A stretch of 64,000 nt of DNA from Prolixibacteraceae bacterium (lineage in GTDB: Bacteria > Bacteroidota > Bacteroidia > Bacteroidales > Prolixibacteraceae), in contig JAQUIJ010000002.1 in assembly GCA_028683385.1 (NCBI GenBank), positions 124,001-188,000 on the forward strand, written 5' to 3'. Positions 32,539 to 64,000 of this stretch are shown here, in pieces; the stretch's first letter is position 1; every line of letters starts with the position of its first letter. Made by a program: the position numbers and the translations under genes. The notes under the pieces are model-generated. The model was not told where the DNA came from. It made no database searches and saw only the letters and a program-made list of their open reading frames with translations.

Positions 32539-32570
32539 CGGGTTGCGTGATCCGGGTTGCGGGTTTTCCC
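32539..32570 (+). repeat. GGGTTGCG-type extragenic repeat
   Basis: CGGGTTGCGTGATCCGGGTTGCGGG holds two copies of CGGGTTGCG nine bases apart, just after the glgB stop. A related element in the other orientation lies at 53011-53070, 20 kb away. Confidence 0.55.
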
Positions 32571-50350: not shown

Positions 50351-51535
50351 TTACACCAACTCAATGGTTACTTTCTTGAAAAATCGGGTCTCAAGCAATC
50401 TCACAATTCGTTTTACAACGAATTTACGAATTTCAAGTTCAATAGGTTGGTCTGGATCCTGATGTGCCCAGTTGATGCGGGTTCCTACAATGATGTGAAT
50501 GATGTCGTGCTGGGTAAGTAGTTTCACCACTTCTTCCGGAGGACTGTCACCCAGACGCATGTCGCTGTGGTAATTTTCCAGAATTTCTTCAACTCTCCCC
50601 AAAGTCAGAATTCCTTCAGTCACGATTTCAAAGCCTTCCATTTTAGCTGCTGGGGGTAATGATTTTTCGGAGAAACGATGTTGGATGTTGATGTCAATAT
50701 TCAGCTCACGCGCAATGATTTCGGCTGTTGTACCCCCACATATGATTTTCTTTCCCGGGAAATCTTTGATCCGTTTAACAAAGTCGGCATCTTTTATTTT
50801 ATAGAATGGCGGACCTGTGATGAGCATAAACTCTCGTGGTTTCCTGAAATAAATAACTCCACAACTCGCATCGTCGCGAATTTCAAACGAATCGTTCATG
50901 GAGGCTTGGTTTAAAATTTTTCGGGAAAGTTTGGTTGCCGAAATTTCGTAATCGCGGGCAATTTGATTTTCTGCAAATCTGACAATGTCGTTAAGTCCCC
51001 ATCCTGTTGGAAATCTGGAGCTTCCCAGTCCTGACTGGGTGACGCCATCCGTCATGAAAATTATCCGGTCTTCAAGCATGGGCGTAAATTCCCTGATTCT
51101 CAAAATTTTTCCTGCGTTTTCGTCACCTCTGATCGGAATTTCAATTTCTTTTGGGTTAAACATTTGTCCTTTTCTGAAAAGGATTGAGCGGGGATTGTCG
51201 TAATTGATAATGCGAAGCAGCCCGGTGTCTTCAATTTCAATAATTGTAAAAGTGGCATAGCTTTCTTTGCCGTCGATACTTTTGGGCAAAGCACGCATGA
51301 AAATATTTGCAGCAACTTCAGGCTTGGTGTGGAATGATGCGTAATTTAGAGCCATTGATGCTGTTAGCGTTGCCAGTACATTTGCTTTTACCCCGTGACC
51401 AATTCCATCAGAAAGTACCAGGATGGAACGACCTTCAGCCCTGATTTGTTTCGAATGAAAAACATCCCCGCAAACAACCTGCCCGTGCCTGTTTAGCTGA
51501 TGCAAGTCCACTTCTATGTGATAATCATCACTCAT
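50351..51535 (-). CDS. SpoIIE-family PP2C-type serine phosphatase
   Basis: These phosphatases dephosphorylate anti-anti-sigma or similar partner proteins. The N-terminal part carries the fold: VCGDVFHSKQI near residue 21, the metal-binding LVLSDGIGHGVKAN near residue 40, RIIFMTDGVTQSGL near 157 and EIRDDASCGVIYF near 219. After residue about 235 a second part of about 160 residues (ITGPPFYKIKDADFVKRIKDFPGKKIICGGTTAEIIARELN) follows that I cannot assign; it often accompanies this phosphatase type beside hydrogenase genes. It overlaps the upstream PAS gene by eight bases, so the two are made together, and is divergent from the DRTGG/HydS gene run. Confidence 0.86.
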   Translation of the reverse strand: MSDDYHIEVDLHQLNRHGQVVCGDVFHSKQIRAEGRSILVLSDGIGHGVKANVLATLTASMALNYASFHTKPEVAANIFMRALPKSIDGKESYATFTIIEIEDTGLLRIINYDNPRSILFRKGQMFNPKEIEIPIRGDENAGKILRIREFTPMLEDRIIFMTDGVTQSGLGSSRFPTGWGLNDIVRFAENQIARDYEISATKLSRKILNQASMNDSFEIRDDASCGVIYFRKPREFMLITGPPFYKIKDADFVKRIKDFPGKKIICGGTTAEIIARELNIDINIQHRFSEKSLPPAAKMEGFEIVTEGILTLGRVEEILENYHSDMRLGDSPPEEVVKLLTQHDIIHIIVGTRINWAHQDPDQPIELEIRKFVVKRIVRLLETRFFKKVTIELV

Positions 51536-52454
51536 CCTCGCCGTATTTGTACGATTCGATAATCGAATTCAGAAGTTCCTCTGTCATTGAGGCATTGTCG
51601 CCAAGGAGAAAGGCTATTTTTTGCACGGTTTCGAGGTTGTGCCGGTTTACCCGTTGTGCACGACTGATAATTTCTTCACGAACCAGTGACGGAGCCGACA
51701 TGTCGCGCAAGAGCGCACCAACCACGCGGTGTTTGTAAATGGTAATTACCGAAACATGCAACAATTTATTCTGAATCTTCATGTCACGTTCGATTGCATT
51801 TTCTCCCGAAATCATGGTCGCTGCGAACATTTTATAAATCACATCCGGAACTAGTTCTTTCAGGTCGGCGCCGTGAAGGCCGGGAATCGTTTCATACAAT
51901 TCTTCAATTTCAGTCCCGAAAAGTTTCGCAAATGCCTCGTTCGAATCAATCACTTTAAATTCACTGTCAACAATAATGAGTCCTGCCCTGATTTTGTGCA
52001 TCATGGCCGAGGCAATTACAGTTGCTTCGCGTGCTTTTTCGAGTTTTCGTTCTGCCTTCTTTCGTTCGGTGATGTCGAAAACTGAACCTACAATACCGAT
52101 TACTTCACCCTGATTATCGCGGATTACCGCTTTATTGAAAACCACATCGCGCAACAAGCCGGTTGCATCCCTAAATTTAGCCTCATAACTTTGATCGCCC
52201 GGACTGTCGAGTAATTCCTGATCTCGTTTGGCGTATATTTCCGCAATGTCGAAAGGTTGAATGTCGAAAACAGTTTTCCCAATAATCTGCGACTTAGGTA
52301 GCCCAAGTAGTTTTTCCTGAGCCACATTACACGCTTTATAAATGCCTTTCAGATCACGGTAAAAAATGGGAATGGGCAACGCATCAATAATTTTCTGATG
52401 TAATTCAGGGTCATCAATGAAATCCTGATTGAAAGAATTTTGTTCGTAAATCAT
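51528..52454 (-). CDS. Two-PAS-domain sensor protein without an output domain
   Basis: The 308-residue protein has two PAS domains. The first, about 20-135, shows IPIFYRDLKGIYKACNVAQEKLLGLPKSQIIGKTVFDI and the PAC motif IGIVGSVFDITERKKAERKLE. The second, about 145-245, shows RAGLIIVDSEFKVIDSNEAFAKLFG. The chain ends with a helical part of about 60 residues (IISRAQRVNRHNLETVQKIAFLLGDN) but no kinase, cyclase or HTH domain. The PAS ligand is unknown; no cysteine cluster is seen. Tight overlap with the SpoIIE phosphatase gene argues that it controls that phosphatase directly. Confidence 0.85.
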   Translation of the reverse strand: MIYEQNSFNQDFIDDPELHQKIIDALPIPIFYRDLKGIYKACNVAQEKLLGLPKSQIIGKTVFDIQPFDIAEIYAKRDQELLDSPGDQSYEAKFRDATGLLRDVVFNKAVIRDNQGEVIGIVGSVFDITERKKAERKLEKAREATVIASAMMHKIRAGLIIVDSEFKVIDSNEAFAKLFGTEIEELYETIPGLHGADLKELVPDVIYKMFAATMISGENAIERDMKIQNKLLHVSVITIYKHRVVGALLRDMSAPSLVREEIISRAQRVNRHNLETVQKIAFLLGDNASMTEELLNSIIESYKYGEDE

Positions 52455-52649
52455 GGTGTGTAAATTTCGAACTTAATTTACGAAACATTTGGGAATATTT
52501 AGGAGAAGATTCAATCTCTTTTTTGAATGCTGATACCTCAAAGGAAATACTTAACTGTAACCAATCTAAATAAGGACCGAAGAGCACTGCAATCATCAGA
52601 CTTTAGTTATTTTTTCTGAAATTTGCCGCAAATCATAATACAATTTTAG

Positions 52650-52994
52650 ATGAAGCTAAGAGATATCGCTACAGTTTTAAATGCAAAGGTAACCTGTGGA
52701 GTTGACAAGCTGGATGAAGAGATAGGGATGGGTTATAGTTCTGACCTGATGAGCGATGTATTGACCTTGGATACTGATAATTTGATACTGATAACCGGGC
52801 TGGTGAACCTTCAGTGTATCCGTACTGCCGAAATGGCCGACATTCGTGCCATTGTTTTTGTACGCAATAAAAAAGCCTCTGATCCGATGCTGGAACTGGC
52901 TTGCGAGAATGGGATGTGCATACTCGAATCGCCTTTTTCTCTATTCAAATCGAGTGGGCTTTTGTTCCAGGCCGGATTAAAACCGATTTATTGA
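52650..52994 (+). CDS. DRTGG-domain protein (first copy)
   Basis: The DRTGG domain is a small alpha/beta fold, also found in HPr kinases and CBS proteins, of unknown binding role. The 114-residue protein starts MKLRDIATVLNAKVTCGVDKLDEEIGMGYSSDLMSDVLTL. It then has NLILITGLVNLQCIRTAEMADIRAIVFVRNKKA. The same layout recurs in the second copy (54847-55182). It is the first gene of the rightward run, divergent from the PAS/phosphatase genes. Confidence 0.83.
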   Translation: MKLRDIATVLNAKVTCGVDKLDEEIGMGYSSDLMSDVLTLDTDNLILITGLVNLQCIRTAEMADIRAIVFVRNKKASDPMLELACENGMCILESPFSLFKSSGLLFQAGLKPIY

Positions 52995-53010
52995 TTTAAA
53001 AAATGTTATG

Positions 53011-53070
53011 AGTTGCGGGATGCGGGTTCCGAGTGAATAACACGCAACCCGAAACACGCAACCCGAAACA
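53011..53070. repeat. GGGTTGCG-type extragenic repeat, inverted form
   Basis: GTTGCGGGATGCGGGTTCC on the left and two copies of ACGCAACCCGAAAC on the right are partly complementary and fill the gap between the DRTGG and RsbW-like genes. The CGGGTTGCGTG core is shared with 32539-32570. Confidence 0.6.
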
Positions 53071-53079
53071 ACTTAAGAT

Positions 53080-53493
53080 TTGAAACTTACTTTTAACATA
53101 CAGGGTGGAGACTTTACTCATGCAGGGAAACCTTCGAGTGAGGTAAAAAAAGTGCTTAAACAACTGAATGTTGACGGCAAGACTGTGAAAAACATTGTAA
53201 TTGCGTTGTATGAAGCTGAAGTAAATGTGGTAGCTCATGCCTGGAAAGGAACTGTTTCGGCTGAAATTGATGAGAATAAGATTACCATATTTGTTGAAGA
53301 CGATGGTCCTGGTATTCCTGATATTGAATTGGCCATGCAGGCCGGATACTCCACTGCGAGCAAACAGGTTCGGGATATGGGGTTTGGGGCCGGAATGGGT
53401 TTGCCGAATATGAAAAAGAATACAGATGAATTGTTGATCGAATCGATAGTCGGCAAGGGTACAAAAGTTAAAATGGTTAACTATTTTAAATGA
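53080..53493 (+). CDS. RsbW-like anti-sigma / GHKL ATPase
   Basis: This 137-residue protein is the small single-domain form of the GHKL ATPase fold used by anti-sigma kinases. N-box ALYEAEVNVVAHA is near residue 48, the G1 box EDDGPGIPD near 75, and the G2 region GFGAGMGLPNMKKNTD near 107. RsbW-type proteins bind a sigma factor or phosphorylate an antagonist that a SpoIIE phosphatase resets; both kinds are present here. The start is TTG, as no other start codon is available after the repeat. Its last codon overlaps the HydS-like start (ATGA). Confidence 0.86.
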   Translation: MKLTFNIQGGDFTHAGKPSSEVKKVLKQLNVDGKTVKNIVIALYEAEVNVVAHAWKGTVSAEIDENKITIFVEDDGPGIPDIELAMQAGYSTASKQVRDMGFGAGMGLPNMKKNTDELLIESIVGKGTKVKMVNYFK

Positions 53494-54860
53494 TCGGAGA
53501 TGCTAAATATCATTCATTAGATCCCTCCAAATGCATTGGATGCACCCATTGCATGAAATCGTGTCCGACAGAGGCCATACGGGTTGTAAACGGTTTGGCT
53601 GTTATCGACCATGAGCGCTGTGTGTACTGCGGCCAATGCCATCGGGCTTGCCCTACTCATGCTTTTTACGTTGAGCAGGACGATTTGGCCATGATCCGTT
53701 CATTCAAATACCGTGTCATTTTGTTTCCATCCATCATGATTGGCCAGTTCCCTGGTAAATACAGCGAAGATCAGATATATGATGGCCTGAAAAAAGTTGG
53801 TTTCACCCACATTTATGAAGTGGAACAACCCATGCAAGTGATGATTGATTCGATTAATGAAGTTCTTGCCGATAAAGAAACTCCTAAGCCTGCCATCTCT
53901 ATCTATTGCCCGGCGATTGTTCGGCTAATTCAAGGCCGGTATCCTTCGCTTACTGAAAATTTGATTCTCCGGAAAGCCCCGCATAATCTTGCCGCTCATT
54001 TTGCCGTTGAACAATTGATGCTTGAAGGCGCCCTGCGGGAAGAGATTGGCCTTTTTTATGCGACGCCTTGCATTGCGAAAATAGCCGCTGTAAAAAGTCC
54101 TGTTGGTGAAAGCGAATCGATTGTGGATGGTATTGTCAACATGAATCAGTTGTATAATGAAGTGATGAAAGTTATTTCTGATGATGTGGTTGACGACAAT
54201 ACTGTTCAACGTAAAAACCTTTCTACTGAAGGAATCAACTGGAGCCTCACACGTGGTGAATCCTGCCATTTTGGATCACGAAGCATAGCCATCGACGGTA
54301 TTCACAATGCCGTTCGTTTTCTGGAAAGACTCGAAAATGATCAGGTTAAGGGCATCGATTTCATTGAAATGAGGGCTTGCGATCAAAGTTGTGCCGGCGG
54401 AATTTTATTAACCGGCAATCGGTTTATGACTGTTGAAAGGTTGGAACGACGCGCTAAACGTTATCCCTCGGCCAAAGAAATACATCTGGAAAACAACCAG
54501 GAAAACTCTCAGGAGTTGAAACGAAAATTGATATTGGATCCAATTGTGCCGAAACCACATTTCGCTTTTGGGAAGGATAGGGTAAAGGCCATGGAAAAGA
54601 TGGATAAGGCGCAGCGTATTGTTTGTTTTTTGCCGGGAATCGATTGCGGCGCATGCGGAGCGCCCAATTGTCACGCGCTGGCCGAAGATATGGTAAACAA
54701 CAAGGCAAAAATGTCGGATTGCATCTTTCTGCAACAAAAGTGGGTGGATGAAGGTCGGATTAATGCCCGAAAAGCGTTCCTCAACATACAGAAGAAATGG
54801 GGAACAGATAGATTTAAAGCTGATTGTAACAAAAGAGGACGACGAAATGAAGGTTTCTGA
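53490..54860 (+). CDS. HydS-like [FeFe]-hydrogenase, putative sensory type, lacking PAS domain
   Basis: The N-terminus has two 4Fe-4S clusters (CIGCTHCMKSCP from Cys15; CVYCGQCHRACP from Cys44). The hydrogenase domain keeps four cysteines for the H-cluster but with unusual loops: YCPAI instead of CCPxW near residue 137, TPCIAK near 190 without the usual trailing Glu, and ACDQSCAGG near 293 instead of the MxCxGGCxxGGGQ motif. A FeS domain (CGACGAPNC, then Cys) follows near 386. In characterised HydS proteins a PAS domain follows; here the chain ends after about 456 residues, and a PAS protein is encoded divergently at 51528-52454. I infer a sensor rather than a working catalyst. Confidence 0.82.
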   Translation: MIGDAKYHSLDPSKCIGCTHCMKSCPTEAIRVVNGLAVIDHERCVYCGQCHRACPTHAFYVEQDDLAMIRSFKYRVILFPSIMIGQFPGKYSEDQIYDGLKKVGFTHIYEVEQPMQVMIDSINEVLADKETPKPAISIYCPAIVRLIQGRYPSLTENLILRKAPHNLAAHFAVEQLMLEGALREEIGLFYATPCIAKIAAVKSPVGESESIVDGIVNMNQLYNEVMKVISDDVVDDNTVQRKNLSTEGINWSLTRGESCHFGSRSIAIDGIHNAVRFLERLENDQVKGIDFIEMRACDQSCAGGILLTGNRFMTVERLERRAKRYPSAKEIHLENNQENSQELKRKLILDPIVPKPHFAFGKDRVKAMEKMDKAQRIVCFLPGIDCGACGAPNCHALAEDMVNNKAKMSDCIFLQQKWVDEGRINARKAFLNIQKKWGTDRFKADCNKRGRRNEGF

Positions 54861-55182
54861 ACTGGTTGAAAAATTAGGTCTGAATGTTTTTTCAGGCCAC
54901 AAAGGATTGGATCGTGAAATGGCCGGAGGCTATGTTTCTGATTTACTTAGTGATGTTATGGGGAATGCTCGTGAAGGTGAAGTCTGGATTACGCTTCAGG
55001 TTCATCAGAATGTAATGGCCATCGCTTCGTTAAAAGATTTGGCAGCGGTTATTCTGGTTAGTAATCTCCAACCACACGAGAACACAATTCGCCATTCGAA
55101 CGACGAAAACATCCCGGTTCTGGGAACCAGTTTGCCAACCTTTGAAATTGCCGGGAGGCTGTATCAACTTTATAACCAGTAA
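54847..55182 (+). CDS. DRTGG-domain protein (second copy)
   Basis: This 111-residue protein is a paralogue of the copy at 52650. It opens MKVSELVEKLGLNVFSGHKGLDREMAGGYVSDLLSDVMG and continues with VWITLQVHQNVMAIASLKDLAAVILVSN. The shared pattern D-x-E-x-x-x-G-Y-x-S-D-L-x-S-D-V fits a conserved binding surface. The chosen ATG overlaps the HydS stop by 14 bases. No catalytic residues are recognisable. An open frame upstream of the ATG overlaps hydS and is not coding. Confidence 0.83.
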   Translation: MKVSELVEKLGLNVFSGHKGLDREMAGGYVSDLLSDVMGNAREGEVWITLQVHQNVMAIASLKDLAAVILVSNLQPHENTIRHSNDENIPVLGTSLPTFEIAGRLYQLYNQ

Positions 55183-55185
55183 TCA

Positions 55186-55926
55186 ATGAAAACATTCAGG
55201 ACCGATCTTCATATCCACACATTGTTATCTCCATGTGGCGATCTGGAAATGAGTCCTGCAAATATTGTCTCGCTGGCTTGTCAACGAGGGCTTGATATTA
55301 TCGGGATAACCGACCACAACACCACTAAACAAAGCGAGCTGGTTTGGAAACTGGCGCAGAAAACGAATCTGACGGTATTCCCGGGATGTGAAATGACTTC
55401 GCGTGAAGAGGTTCATTGCCTGGGACTGTTTGAAGATTTTGATTCATTGCGCATTTTTCAGGATTTTCTTGATCAGCATCTGACAATTATTCCACACAAT
55501 GCCGAGCTTTTTGGTTATCAGGTTCTGGTTGATGAGAATGAAGATATTCTCGAAAAGCTGGATTATTATTTAGGTGCTTCGCTCGATGTGAGTATTGAAG
55601 AAGTGGAGCGTAAAGTGCACGAACTCTCCGGAATCTTTATTCCGGCACACGTCGACCGGCCACGGAACAGTTTGTTCAGTCAACTGGGATTTTTCCCTCC
55701 GGAATTAAAGGTTGATGCTCTGCAGATTTCAAAACTTGCTGAAGAAGATGCCATCCGGGAGAAATACAAAATCACTCAGGATACGACCATTGTGAAATTC
55801 TCGGATACGCACTTTCCGGCAGATCTCGGAAAAATTTACACGAACTTTGAAATGGAGAATGCCACATTTTCTGAAATAAGAATGGCGTTGCATCGTGAAG
55901 ACGGACGAAAATGCCTAATCCCTTAA
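55186..55926 (+). CDS. PHP-domain phosphoesterase
   Basis: PHP proteins are metal-dependent phosphoesterases. Metal ligands are visible in order: TDLHIHTLLSPCGDLEM (His-x-His near residue 8), GITDHNTTKQSE near residue 42, VHCLGLF near 75, IPAHVDRP near 155, and FSDTHFPADLG near 207. The 246-residue length is that of the stand-alone PHP enzymes. The substrate is not known; similar genes accompany HydS/DRTGG genes next to bifurcating hydrogenases. It begins three bases after the DRTGG stop. Confidence 0.85.
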   Translation: MKTFRTDLHIHTLLSPCGDLEMSPANIVSLACQRGLDIIGITDHNTTKQSELVWKLAQKTNLTVFPGCEMTSREEVHCLGLFEDFDSLRIFQDFLDQHLTIIPHNAELFGYQVLVDENEDILEKLDYYLGASLDVSIEEVERKVHELSGIFIPAHVDRPRNSLFSQLGFFPPELKVDALQISKLAEEDAIREKYKITQDTTIVKFSDTHFPADLGKIYTNFEMENATFSEIRMALHREDGRKCLIP

Positions 55927-55960
55927 GCCTCCCCCAAACCCCCTCCGAAAGAGGGGGCTT
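55927..55960 (+). repeat. GC-rich REP-like palindrome, left copy
   Basis: GCCTCCCCCAAACCCCC then TCCGAAAGAGGGGGC forms a stem (CCCCCTC with GAGGGGG). It begins right at the PHP stop codon. An inverted diverged copy ends at 56119. Confidence 0.7.
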
Positions 55961-56084
55961 AAAAAGCGGCTTCCAGATATTTTCTCATTTCTGATTTGAG
56001 ATTGTTCTTCTGTTCGATAAAAATTAGATCTGTACTAAAATGATTTTTAATTCGGATGTACATATAATCGAGTGTTGGGTTCAT
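55959..56084 (-). other. 41-codon ORF between two inverted REP-like repeats, probable remnant
   Basis: Between the two palindromes the minus strand encodes a 41-residue peptide, beginning MNPTLDYMYIRIKNHFS and ending KSEMRKYLEAAF, with natural-looking composition. I cannot name a family. It may be the C-terminal piece of a lost gene or a peptide belonging to the repeat element. Confidence 0.35.
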
Positions 56085-56086
56085 TT

Positions 56087-56119
56087 CCCCTCCTTTGGAG
56101 GGGTTAGGGGAGGCCGCCC
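56087..56119 (-). repeat. GC-rich REP-like palindrome, right (inverted) copy
   Basis: CCCCTCCTTTGGAGGGG is a perfect hairpin and is followed by TTAGGGGAGGCCGCCC. In reverse complement it matches the left copy (GCCTCCCC-AACCCC-TCC-AAAG-AGGGG). It ends directly before the ATG of the next gene. Confidence 0.7.
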
Positions 56120-56668
56120 ATGAAAGACCTTTCTCTACATATCCTCGACATTGTCCAGAATTCGATTCGGGCAAAAGCTAAGTTGATCGGGATTGAAATT
56201 ACCGAACTTCCGAAAGAAAATCATTTGATTATTACCATTACCGACGATGGTACCGGAATGGATCCGGAACAGCTTCGGCTGGCGATCGACCCGTTTTATA
56301 CTTCACGCACTACCCGAAAAGTAGGACTCGGCCTGTCGCTTTTTAAGCAAAATGCGGAGATGACAGGCGGGTCATTCAATATCGAATCTGAGTTGGGAAA
56401 AGGTACAAAGGTCACTGCCGTGTTTGGTCTGAACCATGTTGATCGTCCTGTTATGGGCGATTTGGTCGGAACGCTGATCCTTTTGATTTGCTCTTCCGAT
56501 GAAATAGATTATGTCTTTAAACATCAAACACCTTCAGGAAAATTTGGGTTTGATACTCGTGAATTCAAGCAAACGCTTGAAAATGTGCCGCTTAATCATC
56601 CTGAAGTTCGCTCATTCCTGAAGGAAATGCTTCAGGAGAATTTAGAACAAATTCAAATTACTGAATGA
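56120..56668 (+). CDS. GHKL-type ATP-binding protein (kinase-like, no dimerisation domain)
   Basis: The 182-residue protein carries a histidine-kinase-type ATP domain: the N box HILDIVQNSIRAKAKLI from residue 7, DDGTGMDPEQ near residue 42, FYTSRTTRKVGLGLSLFKQNAEMTGG near 60-85 and GKGTKVTAVF near 97. There is no HisKA region, receiver or sensor, so it probably acts like an anti-sigma or accessory kinase. The C-terminal 75 residues are unassigned. It starts next to a REP-like repeat and precedes the hydrogenase structural genes. Confidence 0.82.
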   Translation: MKDLSLHILDIVQNSIRAKAKLIGIEITELPKENHLIITITDDGTGMDPEQLRLAIDPFYTSRTTRKVGLGLSLFKQNAEMTGGSFNIESELGKGTKVTAVFGLNHVDRPVMGDLVGTLILLICSSDEIDYVFKHQTPSGKFGFDTREFKQTLENVPLNHPEVRSFLKEMLQENLEQIQITE

Positions 56669-56757: not shown

Positions 56758-57156
56758 ATGAATAAAATAAAATCTCTTGCCGACTTAAAAAAGCTACAAT
56801 CCGAAGTTCAATCGAAAATTAAATTAAGAGAAAACGGCGATAATCCTGAAAATCTGATACAAATTAAAGTATCAATGGCTACCTGCGGCATCGCTTCGGG
56901 AGCAAAAGATACTATGAATTACCTGATTGAGGAGCTCGATCAACAGGGAATTGATGCCATCGTTACTCAAACCGGGTGCATGGGTTACTGTTATGCAGAG
57001 CCGACTATTGAACTTACGGTTCCAGGGCAGCCGCCTGTGGTTTACGGTTTTGTAAATAAAACCAAAGCACTGGAAATCATCGAAAAACATATCAAACTCA
57101 ACGAAATGGTTGACGGAATTATTCCAGTGGCTTATTCAACAATCGATAACCATTAA
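56758..57156 (+). CDS. 2Fe-2S thioredoxin-like ferredoxin subunit of the hydrogenase gene set
   Basis: The 132-residue protein belongs to the NuoE-like thioredoxin-fold 2Fe-2S group found as an extra gene before hydB. Cysteines are seen in MATCGIASGAKD near residue 42 and in TGCMGYCYAEP near 77-81. Only three are in the usual places; the second Cys of the normal C-x4-C pair is replaced, as is common in this sub-group. The N-terminal 25 residues are a charged helix. It probably binds HydABC or acts as a soluble electron carrier. It is ten bases before hydB. Confidence 0.82.
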   Translation: MNKIKSLADLKKLQSEVQSKIKLRENGDNPENLIQIKVSMATCGIASGAKDTMNYLIEELDQQGIDAIVTQTGCMGYCYAEPTIELTVPGQPPVVYGFVNKTKALEIIEKHIKLNEMVDGIIPVAYSTIDNH

Positions 57157-57166
57157 ACGGACAAAT

Positions 57167-58960
57167 ATGGCCGAATACAACATGCATATCCTTGTTTGCG
57201 GTGGTACCGGATGCAAGGCCTCGCAAAGCGAACTCATCAAAACGAATTTCACCGACAAGCTCAATGAGTACGGATTGACCGATGAAATTCAGGTCATTTT
57301 GACCGGATGTTTCGGTTTTTGCGAAAAGGGACCTATTGTTAAGATATTGCCCGACAATACATTCTATACCCAGGTTACTCCTGAAGATGTAGCCGAAATT
57401 GTGGATGAACACCTCATCAAAGGACGAAAGGTAGAACGGTTGCTTTTCATAGATCCGGAAACTAAAGAAACAGTTGGCGATTCGAAAGGAATGGATTTTT
57501 ATAAAAAGCAGATTCGTATTGCACTTCGCAACTGCGGTTTTATCAATCCTGAAAACATTGAAGAATACATCGGTCGCGACGGTTATGCTGCACTTGGAAC
57601 CTGCCTTTCAGAGAAATCTCCGGAGGAAGTAATAAAAATGATCAAAGATTCCGGACTTCGCGGACGTGGCGGCGGCGGTTTCCCAACAGGACTGAAATGG
57701 GAATTGACCCGCAAATCGGTTAGTAACCAAAAATATGTAGTTTGCAATGCTGACGAAGGCGATCCGGGCGCATTTATGGATCGTTCCATTCTGGAAGGCG
57801 ATCCGCATTCGGTGCTTGAGGCGATGGCCATTTGCGGATATTGCATTGGCGCCGACAACGGGCTGGTTTACATCCGGGCTGAATATCCTTTGGCCATCGA
57901 ACGTTTGAAAATTGCTATTAACCAGGCGCGCGAGTATGGTTTGCTGGGTGACGACATTTTGGGAACCGGGTTTAATTTCGATGTCGAAATCCGTTACGGC
58001 GCCGGAGCTTTCGTTTGCGGCGAAGAAACCGCGCTGATCCATTCGATGGAAGGGAAGCGTGGCGAACCAACTGTTAAACCTCCATTCCCGGCTGAAAAAG
58101 GATACAATGGCAAACCTACCAATGTGAATAATGTGGAGACTTTTGCCAACATTCCGGTTATCATCAATAAAGGAGCTGAATGGTTTGCTTCAATCGGAAC
58201 TGAAAAATCGAAAGGTACCAAAGTGTTTGCTTTGGCCGGAAAAATCAATAATGTGGGTTTGATTGAAGTTCCGATGGGAATTACCCTTCGCGAAATTATT
58301 TACGATATCGGTGGCGGGATTAAAGATGGTCGCGAATTCAAGGCTGTTCAAACTGGTGGCCCTTCCGGAGGTTGTTTGACCAAATCGTTTCTGGACACGC
58401 CAATCGACTACGATAATTTGGTGGCAGCCGGCTCTATGATGGGTTCAGGCGGAATGATTGTGCTCGACGATTCGGATTGCATGGTAGCCATTGCCAAATT
58501 TTACCTCGAATTTACGCTTGACGAATCGTGTGGAAAATGTACTCCGTGTAGGATTGGGAATAAACGCTTACACGAAATTCTCGAAAAAATAACCGGTGGA
58601 AACGGTGAACTTGAAGATTTGAACCGATTGAGAATGTTGAGTAATGTTATTAAAGATACTTCGCTTTGTGGTCTAGGGCAAACATCTCCAAACCCTGTAC
58701 TTTCAACACTCGATAATTTCTACGACGAATATCTGGCGCATGTAACCACGCATAAATGTCTGGCTGGTCAGTGCAAGGCTTTGATGCACTATTCCATCGA
58801 TGCGGAGCGGTGTACCGGATGTACGCTTTGTTTCAGAAACTGCCCGGTTGGTGCTATTTCCGGCGAAAAACGTTCACCACATTACATTGATCAGTCGTTG
58901 TGTATCAAATGTGGTGTATGTGCTGCGAAATGTAAGTTTGATGCTGTATTAATTGCATAA
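57167..58960 (+). CDS. hydB: HydB, NuoF-like subunit of electron-bifurcating [FeFe]-hydrogenase
   Basis: HydB carries the FMN/NADH site of the bifurcating complex. The 597-residue chain has an N-terminal 2Fe-2S thioredoxin-like domain (VCGGTGCKAS and TGCFGFCEKG), the NADH/FMN domain (LRGRGGGGFPTGLKW near residue 177, CNADEGDPGAFMDR near 200, GAGAFVCGEETALIHSMEG near 280), the SLBB part, the 4Fe-4S motif CGKCTPCRIG near 460 and a C-terminal double 4Fe-4S ferredoxin (CTGCTLCFRNCPVGAISG, CIKCGVCAAKCKF). Start 57167 is chosen where the family begins. It is followed by hydA after 11 bases. Confidence 0.95.
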   Translation: MAEYNMHILVCGGTGCKASQSELIKTNFTDKLNEYGLTDEIQVILTGCFGFCEKGPIVKILPDNTFYTQVTPEDVAEIVDEHLIKGRKVERLLFIDPETKETVGDSKGMDFYKKQIRIALRNCGFINPENIEEYIGRDGYAALGTCLSEKSPEEVIKMIKDSGLRGRGGGGFPTGLKWELTRKSVSNQKYVVCNADEGDPGAFMDRSILEGDPHSVLEAMAICGYCIGADNGLVYIRAEYPLAIERLKIAINQAREYGLLGDDILGTGFNFDVEIRYGAGAFVCGEETALIHSMEGKRGEPTVKPPFPAEKGYNGKPTNVNNVETFANIPVIINKGAEWFASIGTEKSKGTKVFALAGKINNVGLIEVPMGITLREIIYDIGGGIKDGREFKAVQTGGPSGGCLTKSFLDTPIDYDNLVAAGSMMGSGGMIVLDDSDCMVAIAKFYLEFTLDESCGKCTPCRIGNKRLHEILEKITGGNGELEDLNRLRMLSNVIKDTSLCGLGQTSPNPVLSTLDNFYDEYLAHVTTHKCLAGQCKALMHYSIDAERCTGCTLCFRNCPVGAISGEKRSPHYIDQSLCIKCGVCAAKCKFDAVLIA

Positions 58961-58971
58961 TAGGGAAAGAT

Positions 58972-60723
58972 ATGGAAATGATAAACCTCACAATAGATCA
59001 TAAACCGGTGGTTGTCCGTCAGGGAACTACCATACTCAAAGCTGCTTCTAGTATTGGAATTGATATTCCGACGCTTTGCTACATGAAGCTCGACGACATG
59101 AACATCGAAAATAAACCGGGTGGTTGCCGTGTTTGTGTGGTAGAAGTTAAAGGTCGCCGGAACCTGGCGCCTGCCTGTTGCACAGAAGCCACCGAAGGCA
59201 TGGAAATAAATACACATTCCATTCGTGCTATAAATGCCCGCCGTACTGTTGTTGAATTGATTTTGTCAGACCATCCGGCTGATTGTTTGATTTGTGCCAA
59301 ATCGGGCAACTGCGATTTGCAAAATATGGCCAACCATCTTGGTATCCGGAAGATTCATTATCAGGGTGAGCAATCGTCGTATCGCGAGGATACTTCGCCG
59401 GCAATTATCCGTGAAATTAACAAGTGTATCATGTGCCGCCGATGCGAAACCATGTGCAACGACGTTCAGACAGTCGGCGTTCTTTCGGCTGTCAATCGTG
59501 GATTTCAGGCCGTTGTGGCTCCTGCGTTCGAGATGAATCTCGACCATTCGGTTTGTACTTATTGCGGACAGTGTGTTGCTGTTTGTCCGACCGGCGCTCT
59601 TACTGAAGCCGACGAAACCGGCGCCGTGATTCGTGCACTGTCTGATCCGACTAAAACGGTGATTGTACAAACCGCGCCAGCTGTTCGTGCTGCTTTGGGT
59701 GAAGAATTTGGAATGCCCGCCGGAACATTGGTGACTGGCAAAATGGTTGCTGCCCTGCGTCGTTTGGGATTCGATTATGTTTTTGATACCGATTTTGCTG
59801 CCGACCTCACCATTCTGGAAGAAGGAACCGAATTGTTGAGCCGTTTGTCTGCATTTATGGAAGGTGACCCGAATGTGAAACTGCCAATCCTTACTTCCTG
59901 TTGCCCGGCCTGGGTCAAATTCTTTGAACATCATTTCCCGGAATTGAAAGATATTCCATCAACAGCACGTTCGCCTCAGCAAATGTTTGGTTCGATTGCC
60001 AAAACCTATTTTGCTGATAAAATTGGTGTGAAACGTGAAAATTTGGTGGTAGTTTCCATCATGCCATGTTTGGCCAAAAAATACGAAAGTAGTCGCCCCG
60101 AGTTCTCTGTAAATGGTAATCCGGATGTCGATTTTGCGTTGAGTACCCGCGAACTGGCTCATCTGATCAATCTGGGAAACGTCGATTTTAACTCTTTACC
60201 CAATGACGAATTTGATCAGCCGTTAGGTGAATCAACCGGGGCCGCCGTAATCTTCGGAACAACTGGTGGAGTGATAGAAGCTGCGGTACGCACAGCCTAC
60301 GAAGTATTTACAGGCAAGCCTTTGCCGCGTGTCGACTTCGAAGAGTTGCGCGGAATGGATGGTTTACGAAAAGCAACTATCGATTTCAACGGAACACCGA
60401 TCAACATCGGGATCGCTCACGGGTTGGGCAATGCACGCAAGTTGCTCGAAGATATTCAGGCAGGAAACAGTGAATTCCATGCCATCGAAATCATGTCGTG
60501 CCCGGGTGGTTGTATTGGTGGTGGTGGTCAGCCGTACCATCATGGCGATGCCGAAATTTTGAAAAAACGGCAGCGTGCCATTTATTCGGAAGATAAAAAT
60601 AAGACCATCAGGAAATCGCACGAGAATCCGTATATCACCAAGCTTTACGAAGAATTTTTGGGTGCCCCGATGAGCGAAAAGGCGCATCATCTGTTGCATA
60701 CCAAATATTTTGACAGGAGCTAA
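58972..60723 (+). CDS. hydA: HydA, catalytic subunit of electron-bifurcating [FeFe]-hydrogenase (group A)
   Basis: HydA produces or consumes H2 at the H-cluster while electrons are split between NADH and ferredoxin. In order the 583-residue chain has a plant-type 2Fe-2S domain (CYM, GGCRVC, ACC), a His-ligated 4Fe-4S (DHPADCLICAKSGNC near residue 102), a double 4Fe-4S (CIMCRRCETMCN, CTYCGQCVAVCP), then the H domain with intact motifs: TSCCPAWVKFFEHHFPEL near 308, MPCLAKKYESSRPEF near 364 and MSCPGGCIGGGGQP near 505. All catalytic loops are normal, in contrast to the HydS-like protein upstream. A small-subunit-like tail closes the chain. Confidence 0.96.
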   Translation: MEMINLTIDHKPVVVRQGTTILKAASSIGIDIPTLCYMKLDDMNIENKPGGCRVCVVEVKGRRNLAPACCTEATEGMEINTHSIRAINARRTVVELILSDHPADCLICAKSGNCDLQNMANHLGIRKIHYQGEQSSYREDTSPAIIREINKCIMCRRCETMCNDVQTVGVLSAVNRGFQAVVAPAFEMNLDHSVCTYCGQCVAVCPTGALTEADETGAVIRALSDPTKTVIVQTAPAVRAALGEEFGMPAGTLVTGKMVAALRRLGFDYVFDTDFAADLTILEEGTELLSRLSAFMEGDPNVKLPILTSCCPAWVKFFEHHFPELKDIPSTARSPQQMFGSIAKTYFADKIGVKRENLVVVSIMPCLAKKYESSRPEFSVNGNPDVDFALSTRELAHLINLGNVDFNSLPNDEFDQPLGESTGAAVIFGTTGGVIEAAVRTAYEVFTGKPLPRVDFEELRGMDGLRKATIDFNGTPINIGIAHGLGNARKLLEDIQAGNSEFHAIEIMSCPGGCIGGGGQPYHHGDAEILKKRQRAIYSEDKNKTIRKSHENPYITKLYEEFLGAPMSEKAHHLLHTKYFDRS

Positions 60724-60769
60724 AATTGGTCATTGATTGTCATTAAGTCATTAATTTGTCATTCATTGT
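60724..60769 (+). repeat. TCATT-rich left arm flanking the four-helix-bundle gene
   Basis: TTGGTCATTGATTGTCATT then AAGTCATTAATTTGTCATTC contains four TCATT units in 40 bases. It is matched in inverted orientation by 61141-61190. Confidence 0.65.
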
Positions 60770-60782
60770 TATACCGCTGGAA

Positions 60783-61157
60783 ATGAAGTTAGAGGATTTA
60801 CAGGTTTATCAAATATCTATGAAACTTGCTGATGAGGTTCATGATTTGGTAATGGAATGGGATAATTTTCATAAGTTTTCTACAGGAACGCAGTTGGTAA
60901 ACGCTGCAGATTCAGTTTCTGCCAATATTAGTGAAGGTTATGGTCGTTTCCATTTTAAAGATCACAAGAATTTTCAGTACTTTTCAAGAGGATCACTTTC
61001 TGAAACCAAAACATGGCTGACAAAAGCTGTGAACAGAAAACTCATATCTGAAGAAAAATTCTCTGATCTGATAAATCGTTACAATTCCCTAGGAATTAAA
61101 TTAAACAATTACATTAATTCTATCGGAAACACTGGCGCCTCCAATGACCATGAATGA
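60783..61157 (+). CDS. Four-helix-bundle protein (23S rRNA intervening-sequence / Avd-like family)
   Basis: The 124-residue protein shows the whole family pattern: LEDLQVYQISMKLADEVHDLV at the start, FSTGTQLVNAADSVSANISEGYGRFHFKDHKNFQYFSRGSLSETKTWL in the middle and a final helix LINRYNSLGIKLNNYINSI. Relatives are encoded in 23S rRNA intervening sequences and serve as accessory proteins in diversity-generating retroelements; many other copies lie scattered in Bacteroidota genomes. It interrupts the hydA-hydC pair and its last residues (SNDHE) are coded by the right repeat arm, so gene and repeat came together. The function is not known. Confidence 0.88.
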   Translation: MKLEDLQVYQISMKLADEVHDLVMEWDNFHKFSTGTQLVNAADSVSANISEGYGRFHFKDHKNFQYFSRGSLSETKTWLTKAVNRKLISEEKFSDLINRYNSLGIKLNNYINSIGNTGASNDHE

Positions 61158-61221: not shown

Positions 61222-61728
61222 ATGCCAGGAATAAAACTTTCAGAAAAAACCATCGGACTGATCAGGGAAGTCTGTTCTGATTTCGGGAACCAGGGAAGTG
61301 AACTGATTAATGTATTGCATCAGGTGCAGAGTAAGTTAGGCTATTTGCCAGCCGAAGTGCAGGAAGTAATTGCCAAAGAATTGAATATTTCTATAGCCAA
61401 AGTTTACGGAGTGGTTACCTTCTACTCGTTCTTTACAATGATCCCAATGGGCGAACACCCGATTTCCATTTGTATGGGAACGGCTTGTTATGTGCGCGGT
61501 TCGGAACAGGTTCTTGCCGAATTTAAGCGACAACTAAGTATCGAAGTGGGGCAAAGTACTGCCGACAATAAATTTTCGCTCAATTGCCTTCGCTGTGTCG
61601 GCGCCTGCGGTTTGGCTCCTGTGGTGATGGTAGGCGATAAAGTATATGGCCGTGTCTCGCCACAAATGGTAAAAGGCATTATTTCCGAATATAAGGAAGG
61701 TTGCGCTTCTGAAGCAAAATCAGCGTAA
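61222..61728 (+). CDS. hydC: HydC, NuoE-like 2Fe-2S subunit of the bifurcating hydrogenase
   Basis: HydC passes electrons between HydB and HydA. The 168-residue protein has the NuoE layout: a helical N-terminal part (EVCSDFGNQGSELINVLHQVQSKLGYLP) and the thioredoxin-like 2Fe-2S domain with Cys ligands in CMGTACYVRGSEQV near residue 85 and CLRCVGACGLAPVVMV near 125. It is separated from hydA by the four-helix-bundle insert; usually hydC is adjacent to hydB or hydA. A strong terminator follows. Confidence 0.93.
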   Translation: MPGIKLSEKTIGLIREVCSDFGNQGSELINVLHQVQSKLGYLPAEVQEVIAKELNISIAKVYGVVTFYSFFTMIPMGEHPISICMGTACYVRGSEQVLAEFKRQLSIEVGQSTADNKFSLNCLRCVGACGLAPVVMVGDKVYGRVSPQMVKGIISEYKEGCASEAKSA

Positions 61729-61745: not shown

Positions 61746-61789
61746 TTAGTGAGCGGGTGACTCAAAGTCATCCGCTCACTAATTTTTTT
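61746..61789 (+). terminator. Strong rho-independent terminator after hydC
   Basis: A stem of about 17 bp (TTAGTGAGCGGGTGACT with AGTCATCCGCTCACTAA, one mismatch or wobble) around a three-base loop is followed by seven T. Confidence 0.93.
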
Positions 61790-63054: not shown

Positions 63055-63062
63055 TAATTTTG
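63055..63062 (+). promoter_or_regulatory. -7 box for the second NuoE/NuoF unit
   Basis: TAATTTTG matches TAnnTTTG 51 bases before the chosen ATG. A TTTC at 63034-63037, 17 bases upstream, is a weak -33 candidate. Confidence 0.5.
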
Positions 63063-63113
63063 TATGGTTTCAGGAGAATCTCAGATATTCATCAACGAAT
63101 AAATCTTTTACAT

Positions 63114-63599
63114 ATGCACCCTGTTTCCGAATTGATCAAAAATCTGGCCGATCAGCATGGTCGTGAACGGCGCAATCTGCTACCGATTCTTCAGGGAGTT
63201 GTTGAGCAGGAAAAATACCTTTCAGAATTTTCAATGATTGAAATTGCCCGTGAATTGGATCTGCCAGCTGCCGAAGTATATGGTACTGCTACTTTCTATT
63301 CTTTTCTGGAATACAAAAAAATGGGCAAATATATCATTCGTGTCTGCAAAACCATTACCTGTTCCATGAAAGGGAAAAACCAAATCATGTTGGCCATTGA
63401 GGATATGTTGAAAATCAGTGCCGGTGAAACTACTCCTGATGGAAATTTCTCATTGCTTCAGACCAATTGCCTGGGGTTTTGCCACAAGGCACCTGCAATG
63501 CTTATTAACAACGAAATTTATACAGAGCTGACACCTGAAAAAGTACGTGAGATTTTAAGCTCATACCTGGAAAAGAAAGGAGGCTTGTATGACAACTAA
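63114..63599 (+). CDS. Second NuoE-like 2Fe-2S subunit
   Basis: The 161-residue protein has the NuoE layout: RRNLLPILQGVVEQEKYLSE in the helical N-terminal part, the ATFYSFLEYKKMGKY link near residue 75, and 2Fe-2S ligands in VCKTITCSMKGKN (Cys-x4-Cys near 97-102) and NCLGFCHKAP (Cys-x3-Cys near 139-143). It differs clearly from the HydC at 61222, so it is a separate paralogue. The ATG at 63114 is chosen; an upstream TTG at 63060 lies inside the promoter. It overlaps the next gene by ten bases. Confidence 0.88.
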   Translation: MHPVSELIKNLADQHGRERRNLLPILQGVVEQEKYLSEFSMIEIARELDLPAAEVYGTATFYSFLEYKKMGKYIIRVCKTITCSMKGKNQIMLAIEDMLKISAGETTPDGNFSLLQTNCLGFCHKAPAMLINNEIYTELTPEKVREILSSYLEKKGGLYDN

Positions 63600-64000
63600 T
63601 TACCAACTTAGAAGGGTTGATTTCATTTTTAAAAATGAAAACGATTGGGAAGAAGTGCTGAGTAAAAGCATCAGCCGAACTCCCCAGGAATTGATAAACG
63701 AACTGATCAGTTCAGAATTGAAGGGAAGGGGAGGCGCCGGATTTCCCACCGGATTAAAATGGAAACTTTCGTCGGAAGCGGTTGATGATATTAAATACGT
63801 GATTTGCAATGCCGATGAGGGAGAGCCAGGAACTTTTAAGGATCGGGAGATTTTGTCGAGGGTGCCATTTAAAGTTTTGACTGCCATGGCAGTATGCGGT
63901 CATGTGATTGGTGCAAAAGAAGGATACATTTACCTGCGCGGCGAATACTTTTTTCTTCAGCCTGAACTAAAAAAGGCGATTAGCGAGTTTGAGTACTTTT
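63590..64000 (+). CDS. Second NuoF-like NADH-binding subunit (3' end outside window)
   Basis: This is the N-terminal 137 residues of a NuoF/HydB-type flavoprotein. It lacks the N-terminal 2Fe-2S thioredoxin domain of HydB and starts almost directly with the flavin domain: LKGRGGAGFPTGLKWK near residue 46, VICNADEGEPGTFKDREIL near 70 and GAKEGYIYLRGEYFF near 110. In this it resembles NuoF of complex I and of NAD-dependent formate dehydrogenases. What follows beyond the window decides between a second bifurcating enzyme, a formate dehydrogenase or another NADH-linked complex. The start codon overlaps the preceding NuoE stop. Confidence 0.87.

Follow-up and report, generated by a model that had tools for sequence, protein, structure and literature searches.

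A proposed hydrogen/redox control module beside a bifurcating [FeFe] hydrogenase in Prolixibacteraceae: HydS, DRTGG proteins, an RsbW-like ATPase and a separable phosphatase unit

Partner switching is known from the SpoIIAB/SpoIIAA/SpoIIE and RsbW/RsbV/RsbU systems. A gene cluster that recalls them lies beside a hydrogenase operon in a Prolixibacteraceae bacterium (contig JAQUIJ010000002.1, assembly GCA_028683385.1), from which a stretch of 64,000 nucleotides, here called the window, was analysed. Leftward run the genes of a SpoIIE-type phosphatase and a PAS-PAS protein; rightward run those of a DRTGG protein (DRTGG1), an RsbW-like ATPase, the putative sensory [FeFe] hydrogenase HydS, a second DRTGG protein (DRTGG2), a PHP-domain protein and a GHKL ATPase, followed by the electron-bifurcating hydrogenase HydABC. 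Group D HydS beside HydABC is already known, as is group C HydS with a phosphatase. For our other findings on the module, no published description was found in the open-licence PMC literature, and the same literature yielded nothing on RsbW with a bifurcating hydrogenase; DRTGG and hydrogenase are co-mentioned there only in Desulfovibrio mutant-library work, each word once in the available text.

The described system closest to the rightward genes is TamHydS of Thermoanaerobacter mathranii (group D/M2e). In the available text of its account, the enzyme turns over hydrogen (H2), no PAS domain was identified in its operon, and the authors propose a sensing role and ask how the signal exits the enzyme (PMC8163306); in that of a second account, its C-terminal cluster shows no redox response to H2 (PMC13104023). 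Like TamHydS, the HydS of the window has two N-terminal clusters, an H-domain without the proton-relay cysteine, a C-terminal Cx2Cx4Cx16C motif and no PAS domain, and it too stands upstream of a bifurcating HydABC with a histidine-kinase-like ATPase close by (PMC8163306, PMC13104023). The partners named for the TamHydS locus in the available portions of these accounts are the ATPase and an AraC regulator only (PMC8163306, PMC13104023), whereas HydS here is accompanied by DRTGG1, the RsbW-like ATPase, DRTGG2, the PHP and GHKL proteins and, in addition, the phosphatase unit.

For the leftward genes, the comparison is with group C HydS, which occurs with a serine phosphatase in Ruminococcus albus (PMC6776011) and, under the names HfsB/HfsC, in Thermoanaerobacterium. 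In the latter, as far as the available text reports, both adhE expression and the yield of ethanol go up when hfsA or hfsB is deleted and do not when hfsC or hfsD is (PMC5707799); among hfsB mutants that reverted, 8 of 10 lines had mutations in the hyd operon, and hfsD by itself brought back the phenotype in a strain lacking the operon, which speaks against the phosphatase being strictly required (PMC11837493). As in R. albus and in HfsB/HfsC, a serine phosphatase adjoins a PAS protein in the window (PMC6776011, PMC5707799, PMC11837493), and this protein has the same C-terminal PAS plus helix as the group C HydS of loci L028, L030 and L051 (loci read in this work carry L numbers). Unlike group C HydS, it has no hydrogenase half; HfsB/HfsC are likened to it by description, not by sequence.

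Recurrence and composition of the rightward module

The rightward unit, DRTGG1-ATPase-HydS-DRTGG2-PHP-GHKL-HydABC, is, to judge from sequence comparison, an old and widespread module. Every gene that the earlier note on this DNA had named is an open frame of the family given for it, and the gap it had put at 195 bases has that length:

50351..51535, minus strand: SpoIIE-type PP2C phosphatase, 394 residues (SpoIIE match, E 1.7e-13)
51528..52454, minus strand: PAS-PAS protein with two PAS domains, overlapping the SpoIIE gene by 8 nt
52455..52649, no strand: divergent gap of 195 nt, PAS-PAS leftward and DRTGG1 rightward
52650..52994, plus strand: DRTGG1, 114 residues, with the invariant Ser35 within DLMSDVL
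53080..53493, plus strand: RsbW/SpoIIAB-like ATPase, 137 residues, TTG start (HATPase_c_2, E 4.3e-11)
53490..54860, plus strand: HydS, group D-like [FeFe] hydrogenase (two 4Fe-4S, H-domain, C-terminal Cx2Cx4Cx16C, no PAS)
54847..55182, plus strand: DRTGG2, probable start 54847, from which its Ser35 is numbered
55186..55926, plus strand: PHP-domain protein, 246 residues (Pfam PHP, 4.1e-7)
56120..56668, plus strand: GHKL ATPase (Pfam HATPase_c, 1.1e-18)

Scanned with an ATPase profile, species genomes yielded at least 249 relatives (tblastn E <= 1e-3). The best 80 of them, together with the window and with two relatives taken from a Bacteroidota HydS sample, make up 83 loci. By record titles, mostly of metagenome bins and with labels taken as given, the best 80 span at least 10 phylum-level labels: Bacteroidota, Bacillota, Chlorobi, Ignavibacteria, Sumerlaeota, Armatimonadota, Chloroflexi (Anaerolineae), Atribacteria, Zixibacteria and Coatesbacteria. 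DRTGG1 is adjacent to the ATPase in 80 of the 83 loci, fused to it in 2 and absent from view in 1. HydS follows the ATPase in 74 of 78 loci of sufficient length, and where loci are long enough DRTGG2 is present in 61/71, PHP in 57/66 and GHKL in 43/62. Further, 299 genomes were sampled from the phylum of a Tepidanaerobacter genome (Bacillota-type) and searched with a fused DRTGG1-ATPase query at E <= 1e-30; 127 match, nearly all via the ATPase part. At 80 further loci from this sample DRTGG1 was found 71 times, HydS 75, DRTGG2 77 and PHP 73, with all four at 63, so that the co-occurrence outside this genome on which the earlier note had made its reading depend is indeed conserved. The order of the genes recurs in many phyla, which puts it well outside what chance would give.

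The module is not indivisible. DRTGG1-ATPase-HydS stands without other module genes in, for example, L013, L027 and L029, and in L072, L075 and L078 a HydC-GHKL-NuoE2-HydB-HydA block is divergent from the DRTGG1-led part; together these arrangements suggest two sub-units, a sensing part and a part travelling with the enzyme. The enzyme itself may differ. In five loci tested (L005, L006, L055, L063, L073) the adjoining HydA-like protein has no [FeFe] domain, and in L005 and L006 the next gene downstream of it belongs to the Oxidored_q6 family, the nearest relatives of the L005 copy being small subunits of [NiFe] enzymes (MvhG, for example); the module thus accompanies HydABC-type enzymes of both metal kinds. 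In a Bacteroidales bin (L045) the module has neither HydS nor CBS domains and DRTGG2 comes directly after the ATPase, through true loss or an assembly fault. A Coatesbacteria-labelled locus (L074) has DRTGG1 and the ATPase only, then an 875-residue protein that we take, by eye, to be PEP synthase/PPDK-like, and the pair is perhaps in other use there.

The ATPase resembles SpoIIAB in fold and residues. Its profile matches SpoIIAB (1til, E 7.4e-12), its best NCBIfam match is anti-sigma F factor (69.3 bits, under the model cut-off of 135), and E45, E47, N49, D74, G76, G78, G103, G105 and G107 are present in 156/156 non-redundant sequences. The kinase-type residues of what had been described as a kinase-like ATPase are thus intact, its activity being predicted. 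Relative to SpoIIAB there is a 5-residue insertion immediately before the GMG glycines, at the nucleotide lid (~53374-53391, residues 99-104), where residues 101-105 (GFGAG) are invariant among 30 sequences. DRTGG1 and the ATPase form one protein in a Tepidanaerobacter-type clade (L061, L062, L142-L149) and also in a distant genome (L205), with another linker and 38% identity to the Tepidanaerobacter-type fusion. A model of the fusion yields both folds, SpoIIAB-like and DRTGG-like (2ioj, template-modelling score, TM, 0.78 by target length). The best-supported core of our explanation is that DRTGG1 would be the dedicated partner of the ATPase, because of these natural fusions and the adjacency at 80 of 83 loci, and that HydS would feed the ATPase; the earlier note had suggested that DRTGG proteins may fill the place of the antagonist.

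HydS fits the group D putative sensory [FeFe] hydrogenases, whose domain order it has throughout. Seven of the eight N-terminal cluster cysteines are found in 75/75 sequences and the second one varies in 7/75; of the H-cluster cysteines, Cys140 and Cys194 are present in 75/75 and Cys297 and Cys301 in 73/73, as is the C-terminal Cx2Cx4Cx16C (73/73). Position 139, the proton-relay site, is Cys in 1/75 and Tyr in the window. What may take the place of HydS is indicated by CBS fusions, sought among the 163 loci read. Seven have a pair of CBS domains fused to the N-terminus of the ATPase (Pfam CBS, E 7e-28 to 1.3e-32); three of them are Anaerolineae-labelled and four come from the Bacillota-type sample, which makes at least two lineages. 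HydS is missing from 5 of the 6 CBS-fused loci in which its place is visible vs 4 of 145 other non-redundant loci (Fisher p 1.2e-6, kinship ignored). Because CBS-fused loci are usually without HydS, the straightforward interpretation is that one ATPase would take either HydS or CBS domains as its input.

Against the Pfam DRTGG family (PF07085, cut-off 25.2 bits), DRTGG2 scores 25.9 bits and DRTGG1 16.2 bits, and the model of the fused relative of DRTGG1 matches DRTGG structures. Both proteins share D32-x-x-S35, and Ser35 is found in 147/147 DRTGG1 and 141/141 DRTGG2 non-redundant sequences. Ordinary DRTGG domains of the same phylum differ: among 23 of them the corresponding stretch is mostly GAM, the position is variable and Ser occurs in one (L280). 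Ser35 is a candidate phospho-acceptor because it is invariant in DRTGG1 and DRTGG2 and varies in ordinary DRTGG domains. A structural parallel is with the CBS/DRTGG regulatory regions of inorganic pyrophosphatases (3l31, 3l2b), which likewise have the DRTGG fold and combine CBS domains with it; unlike there, DRTGG is here solitary or fused to an RsbW-like ATPase, and an SDLxSD-type stretch stands where ordinary DRTGG domains have GAM.

A phosphatase unit of separate origin

The earlier note had read the leftward and rightward genes as one module, and this did not hold: SpoIIE/PAS adjoins the rightward module in 7 of the 83 loci (six of these are named, each under a Bacteroidota label) and usually stands elsewhere with group C HydS, as a separable second unit. 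In a close relative (L010) the module and SpoIIE/PAS are on different contigs. Among 53 phosphatase-family loci (30 of 33 places in module genomes, 8 from Bacteroidota other than this genome and 15 of the best Bacillota-type), the partner upstream of SpoIIE is in 44 a HydS-profile match ending in PAS-plus-helix, that is, group C HydS; in one of these (L118) a contig end leaves the C-terminal part only. In the other nine, PAS-PAS proteins stand upstream at three loci related to the window (L099, L100 and L103) and single-PAS proteins at a further three (L133-L135); two loci abut a contig end, and in the last the phosphatase follows a different gene.

What the PAS-PAS protein of the window shares with group C HydS is the second PAS and the helix, which align at 48% identity over residues 441-614 of the L028 protein. 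The PAS-PAS protein has a PAS_4 domain where group C HydS has its Fer4, hydrogenase and Fe-S parts, and contains PAS domains only. In the midpoint-rooted SpoIIE tree the PAS-PAS clade (support 100/100) lies inside a set of 17 members, 11 of them hydrogenase-paired (97/96). Because it is nested among hydrogenase-paired members, the better reading is that the PAS-PAS protein arose by loss and replacement of the hydrogenase half, not by an ancestral split. The word 'split' in the earlier note is therefore half right: the C-terminal PAS and helix are of group C HydS type, and the hydrogenase half looks replaced and gone. A group C HydS was sought elsewhere in the genome and none was found: the query matched the PAS-PAS gene and five hydrogenase-like frames, including the HydS of the window, none over the PAS part. 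PF02906 has 5 matches here, and three relatives have 4 apiece. Two candidate explanations were rejected. A single undivided module including the phosphatase is ruled out by the 7/83 adjacency and the separate history of SpoIIE, and the PAS protein is not a piece split from the HydS of the window, its kin being the C-termini of group C HydS.

The SpoIIE protein also has an extra C-terminal domain of ~160 residues, which its family shares. The window protein's copy matches no Pfam family; in a Pfam scan of 43 members one weak match appeared beyond SpoIIE/PP2C (NBD_C, in one member), and the fold matches listed for the protein concern its PP2C part. Loci L133-L135 (Bacteroidota) pair the phosphatase with a single-PAS protein (168 residues in L133), an apparent second loss of the hydrogenase sensor; just upstream in L133 is a 102-residue frame that by eye we take to be [2Fe-2S] thioredoxin-like.

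Module and phosphatase unit are, on the evidence of neighbourhood and tree, two units of different origin, and it has to be weighed whether they work together at all. The phosphatase unit could be independent of the HydS module; PAS-PAS/SpoIIE would then act on a STAS/RsbW pair encoded far away, and the divergent promoter region common to both units would be a late rearrangement. We give this a substantial minority share of the probability. The genome does contain a 117-residue single-domain STAS protein with a DSSG motif (L129) and, separately, a canonical RsbW-type ATPase (L130), an orphan pair that may be the real target of the phosphatase. By eye, the former lies between genes presumed to be rpsA-like and RNase Z-like, and the latter before a presumably ybeY-like gene. 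The scarce adjacency and the separate contigs of L010 favour independence too, as does the distribution across the 299 genomes, 26 of which have the phosphatase only. The same distribution (both in 66, module only in 61, neither in 146) also speaks for a connection, since the two families co-occur beyond chance (odds ratio 6.1, p 8e-12, kinship ignored). Against independence, further, group C HydS/SpoIIE directly precedes DRTGG1 in L028 and L030, and the published genetics, in the text available, connect the hyd operon of Thermoanaerobacterium with hfsB (PMC11837493).

Proposed mechanism and its alternatives

The explanation that best covers the whole, and which we hold with about even confidence, is a conserved H2/redox control module for electron-bifurcating hydrogenases to which a phosphatase branch has been added. 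By analogy with the published group D work, HydS would read H2 or redox state through its H-cluster; gene order and the CBS domains that replace HydS suggest that its signal passes to the RsbW-like ATPase, which, as the natural fusions indicate, would act with DRTGG1 as its dedicated partner. The likeliest chemistry is that the ATPase phosphorylates DRTGG1 on Ser35, and free or modified DRTGG1 would then control some target; these are the weakest steps. DRTGG2, PHP and GHKL would form a second half tending to travel with HydABC. Set divergently in this lineage, the PAS-PAS and SpoIIE genes probably descend, by homology and by the tree, from a group C HydS/phosphatase pair; with the H2-sensing half swapped for PAS, the unit would now answer to another signal. 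SpoIIE may dephosphorylate DRTGG1 or DRTGG2, or else a STAS protein encoded at another place in the genome. That DRTGG1 is phosphorylated and that SpoIIE reverses this is a testable guess.

How far does this resemble partner switching? The likeness lies in the SpoIIAB fold and residues of the ATPase, the SpoIIE phosphatase and the PAS input; in sequence the cluster has an RsbW/SpoIIAB-type ATPase with its catalytic residues and a SpoIIE/RsbU-type phosphatase, both of predicted activity. Unlike partner switching, the module has neither a STAS antagonist nor a cognate sigma factor; a DRTGG protein is in the partner's position and an [FeFe] hydrogenase serves as the input. Because the STAS antagonist is missing, the module is not a partner-switching system proper, though it may work like one. 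The stronger claim would be that the antagonist is of a novel type: a protein with the DRTGG fold that an RsbW-like kinase phosphorylates on Ser35, with an [FeFe] hydrogenase input exchangeable with energy-sensing CBS domains and a phosphatase branch that went from hydrogenase to PAS; taken together, we regard this as possible and rather doubtful.

A number of observations weigh against the explanation as a whole. For Ser35, a ligand-binding or structural role fits the data equally well. Covariation, measured on paired alignments against 5 shuffled pairings each and underpowered, gave for DRTGG1-ATPase (effective number of sequences 116) a top z of 6.1, not above the 5.3-7.2 of the shuffles; DRTGG1-DRTGG2 reached 6.1 (shuffled 5.3-6.5), ATPase-DRTGG2 5.6 (5.2-6.3) and DRTGG1-PHP 9.2 (6.1-7.7), the last perhaps from descent. 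The fusion model leaves the placement of the two domains relative to each other unfixed (predicted TM score 0.55, linker pLDDT, the per-residue model confidence, <50). Among CBS-fused loci L225 retains HydS, and L045, L074, L252 and L260 are without HydS and also without the CBS pair. HydS, searched with a single query at E <= 1e-40, is found in 3 of 198 Bacteroidota genomes, this one included, and the phosphatase in 9 of the 198, of which only this genome has HydS too. Of 50 module genomes, 29 show the SpoIIE phosphatase and 21, many of them incomplete bins, do not; the co-occurrence statistic carries no correction for descent. No transcription factor is constantly beside the module in the flanks of 16 loci. 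The window contains no STAS match, and the three in the genome at E <= 0.001 are all elsewhere; no sigma factor stands by the module, the genome having 52 Sigma70_r2 matches, none of them there; the target may be distant. The sole Sigma70_r2 match of the window is at ~14925, ~35 kb from the module, and in this respect the earlier note, which had seen neither a STAS antagonist nor a dedicated sigma factor in the module, was correct.

The want of a constant transcription factor or adjoining sigma factor also lends itself to an explanation without gene-regulatory output, in which the small proteins serve HydABC assembly or direct post-translational control, HydS testing H2 and the ATPase/DRTGG proteins gating the enzyme. 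In its favour, GHKL and NuoE2 travel with HydABC, and a HydABC of the NiFe kind can likewise be the neighbour of the module; the DRTGG1-RsbW-HydS loci without HydABC in reach (L013 and L027, for example) point the other way, and we consider it unlikely. That HydS is a metabolic hydrogenase of low activity or an electron carrier, its neighbours being unrelated regulators kept by operon inertia, would agree with the H2 turnover and H2-insensitive C-terminal cluster reported in the available accounts of TamHydS (PMC8163306, PMC13104023), and is very improbable in view of the strict adjacency in many phyla, the ATPase/HydS overlap and the CBS domains standing in for HydS.

Should the stronger claim of a DRTGG antagonist hold, electron-bifurcating hydrogenases would have a widespread switch responding to H2/energy. 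How H2 sensing by an [FeFe] hydrogenase reaches the controls of the cell is the question posed, in the text available, by the authors of the TamHydS study (PMC8163306), and for fermenting bacteria (of sediments, digesters, rumen and gut by their record titles) the module points to the likeliest receiver of the signal, its partner and one residue. In both branches sensors have apparently been exchanged on a fixed output; if so, the logic of H2 control could be read from genomes.

HydABC and smaller features of the locus

Downstream of the GHKL gene lie:

56758..57156, plus strand: NuoE2, thioredoxin-like [2Fe-2S] protein (library matches below cut-offs; conserved position before HydB)
57167..58960, plus strand: HydB, flavin subunit (library match)
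58972..60723, plus strand: HydA, group A [FeFe] catalytic subunit of bifurcating type (NCBIfam FeFe_hydrog_A6)
60756..61157, plus strand: open reading frame of 133 residues between hydA and hydC
61222..61728, plus strand: HydC, downstream of hydA
61746..61782, plus strand: strong terminator-like hairpin 3' of hydC, 17 pairs and a T run

HydA scores 897.9 bits against FeFe_hydrog_A6 (cut-off 765), and its nearest solved chains are 8a6t_A (E 1.1e-188) and 7q4v_A. The genome has five Fe_hyd_lg_C proteins in total. A second HydC-HydB-HydA set begins 1.3 kb past the first, at window 63060-64000 and onward (L186 561-4085).

Within the module, the ATPase and HydS frames share 4 nt. The longest DRTGG2 frame opens at 54748, and most homologues begin at the position equivalent to 54847. 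DLHxHT, LSPC, DHN and SDxH are conserved in the PHP protein, and the Pfam matches of the GHKL protein include no HisKA, the histidine phospho-acceptor domain. A scan for promoter-like sites gave 19 vs 22.9 +/- 4.6 in shuffles, no excess; a segment of the divergent gap near DRTGG1 (~52605-52635) is similar in the window, L008, L009 and L010, and more weakly in L015.

The 133-residue frame between hydA and hydC resembles, we presume, the four-helix-bundle family of rRNA intervening sequences. A G+C-rich element (CGCAACCCG...) in the DRTGG1/ATPase interval (53043-53065) recurs 20 kb off at 32539-32561; 0 such repeats are expected by chance, and it is possibly a REP-like intergenic repeat.

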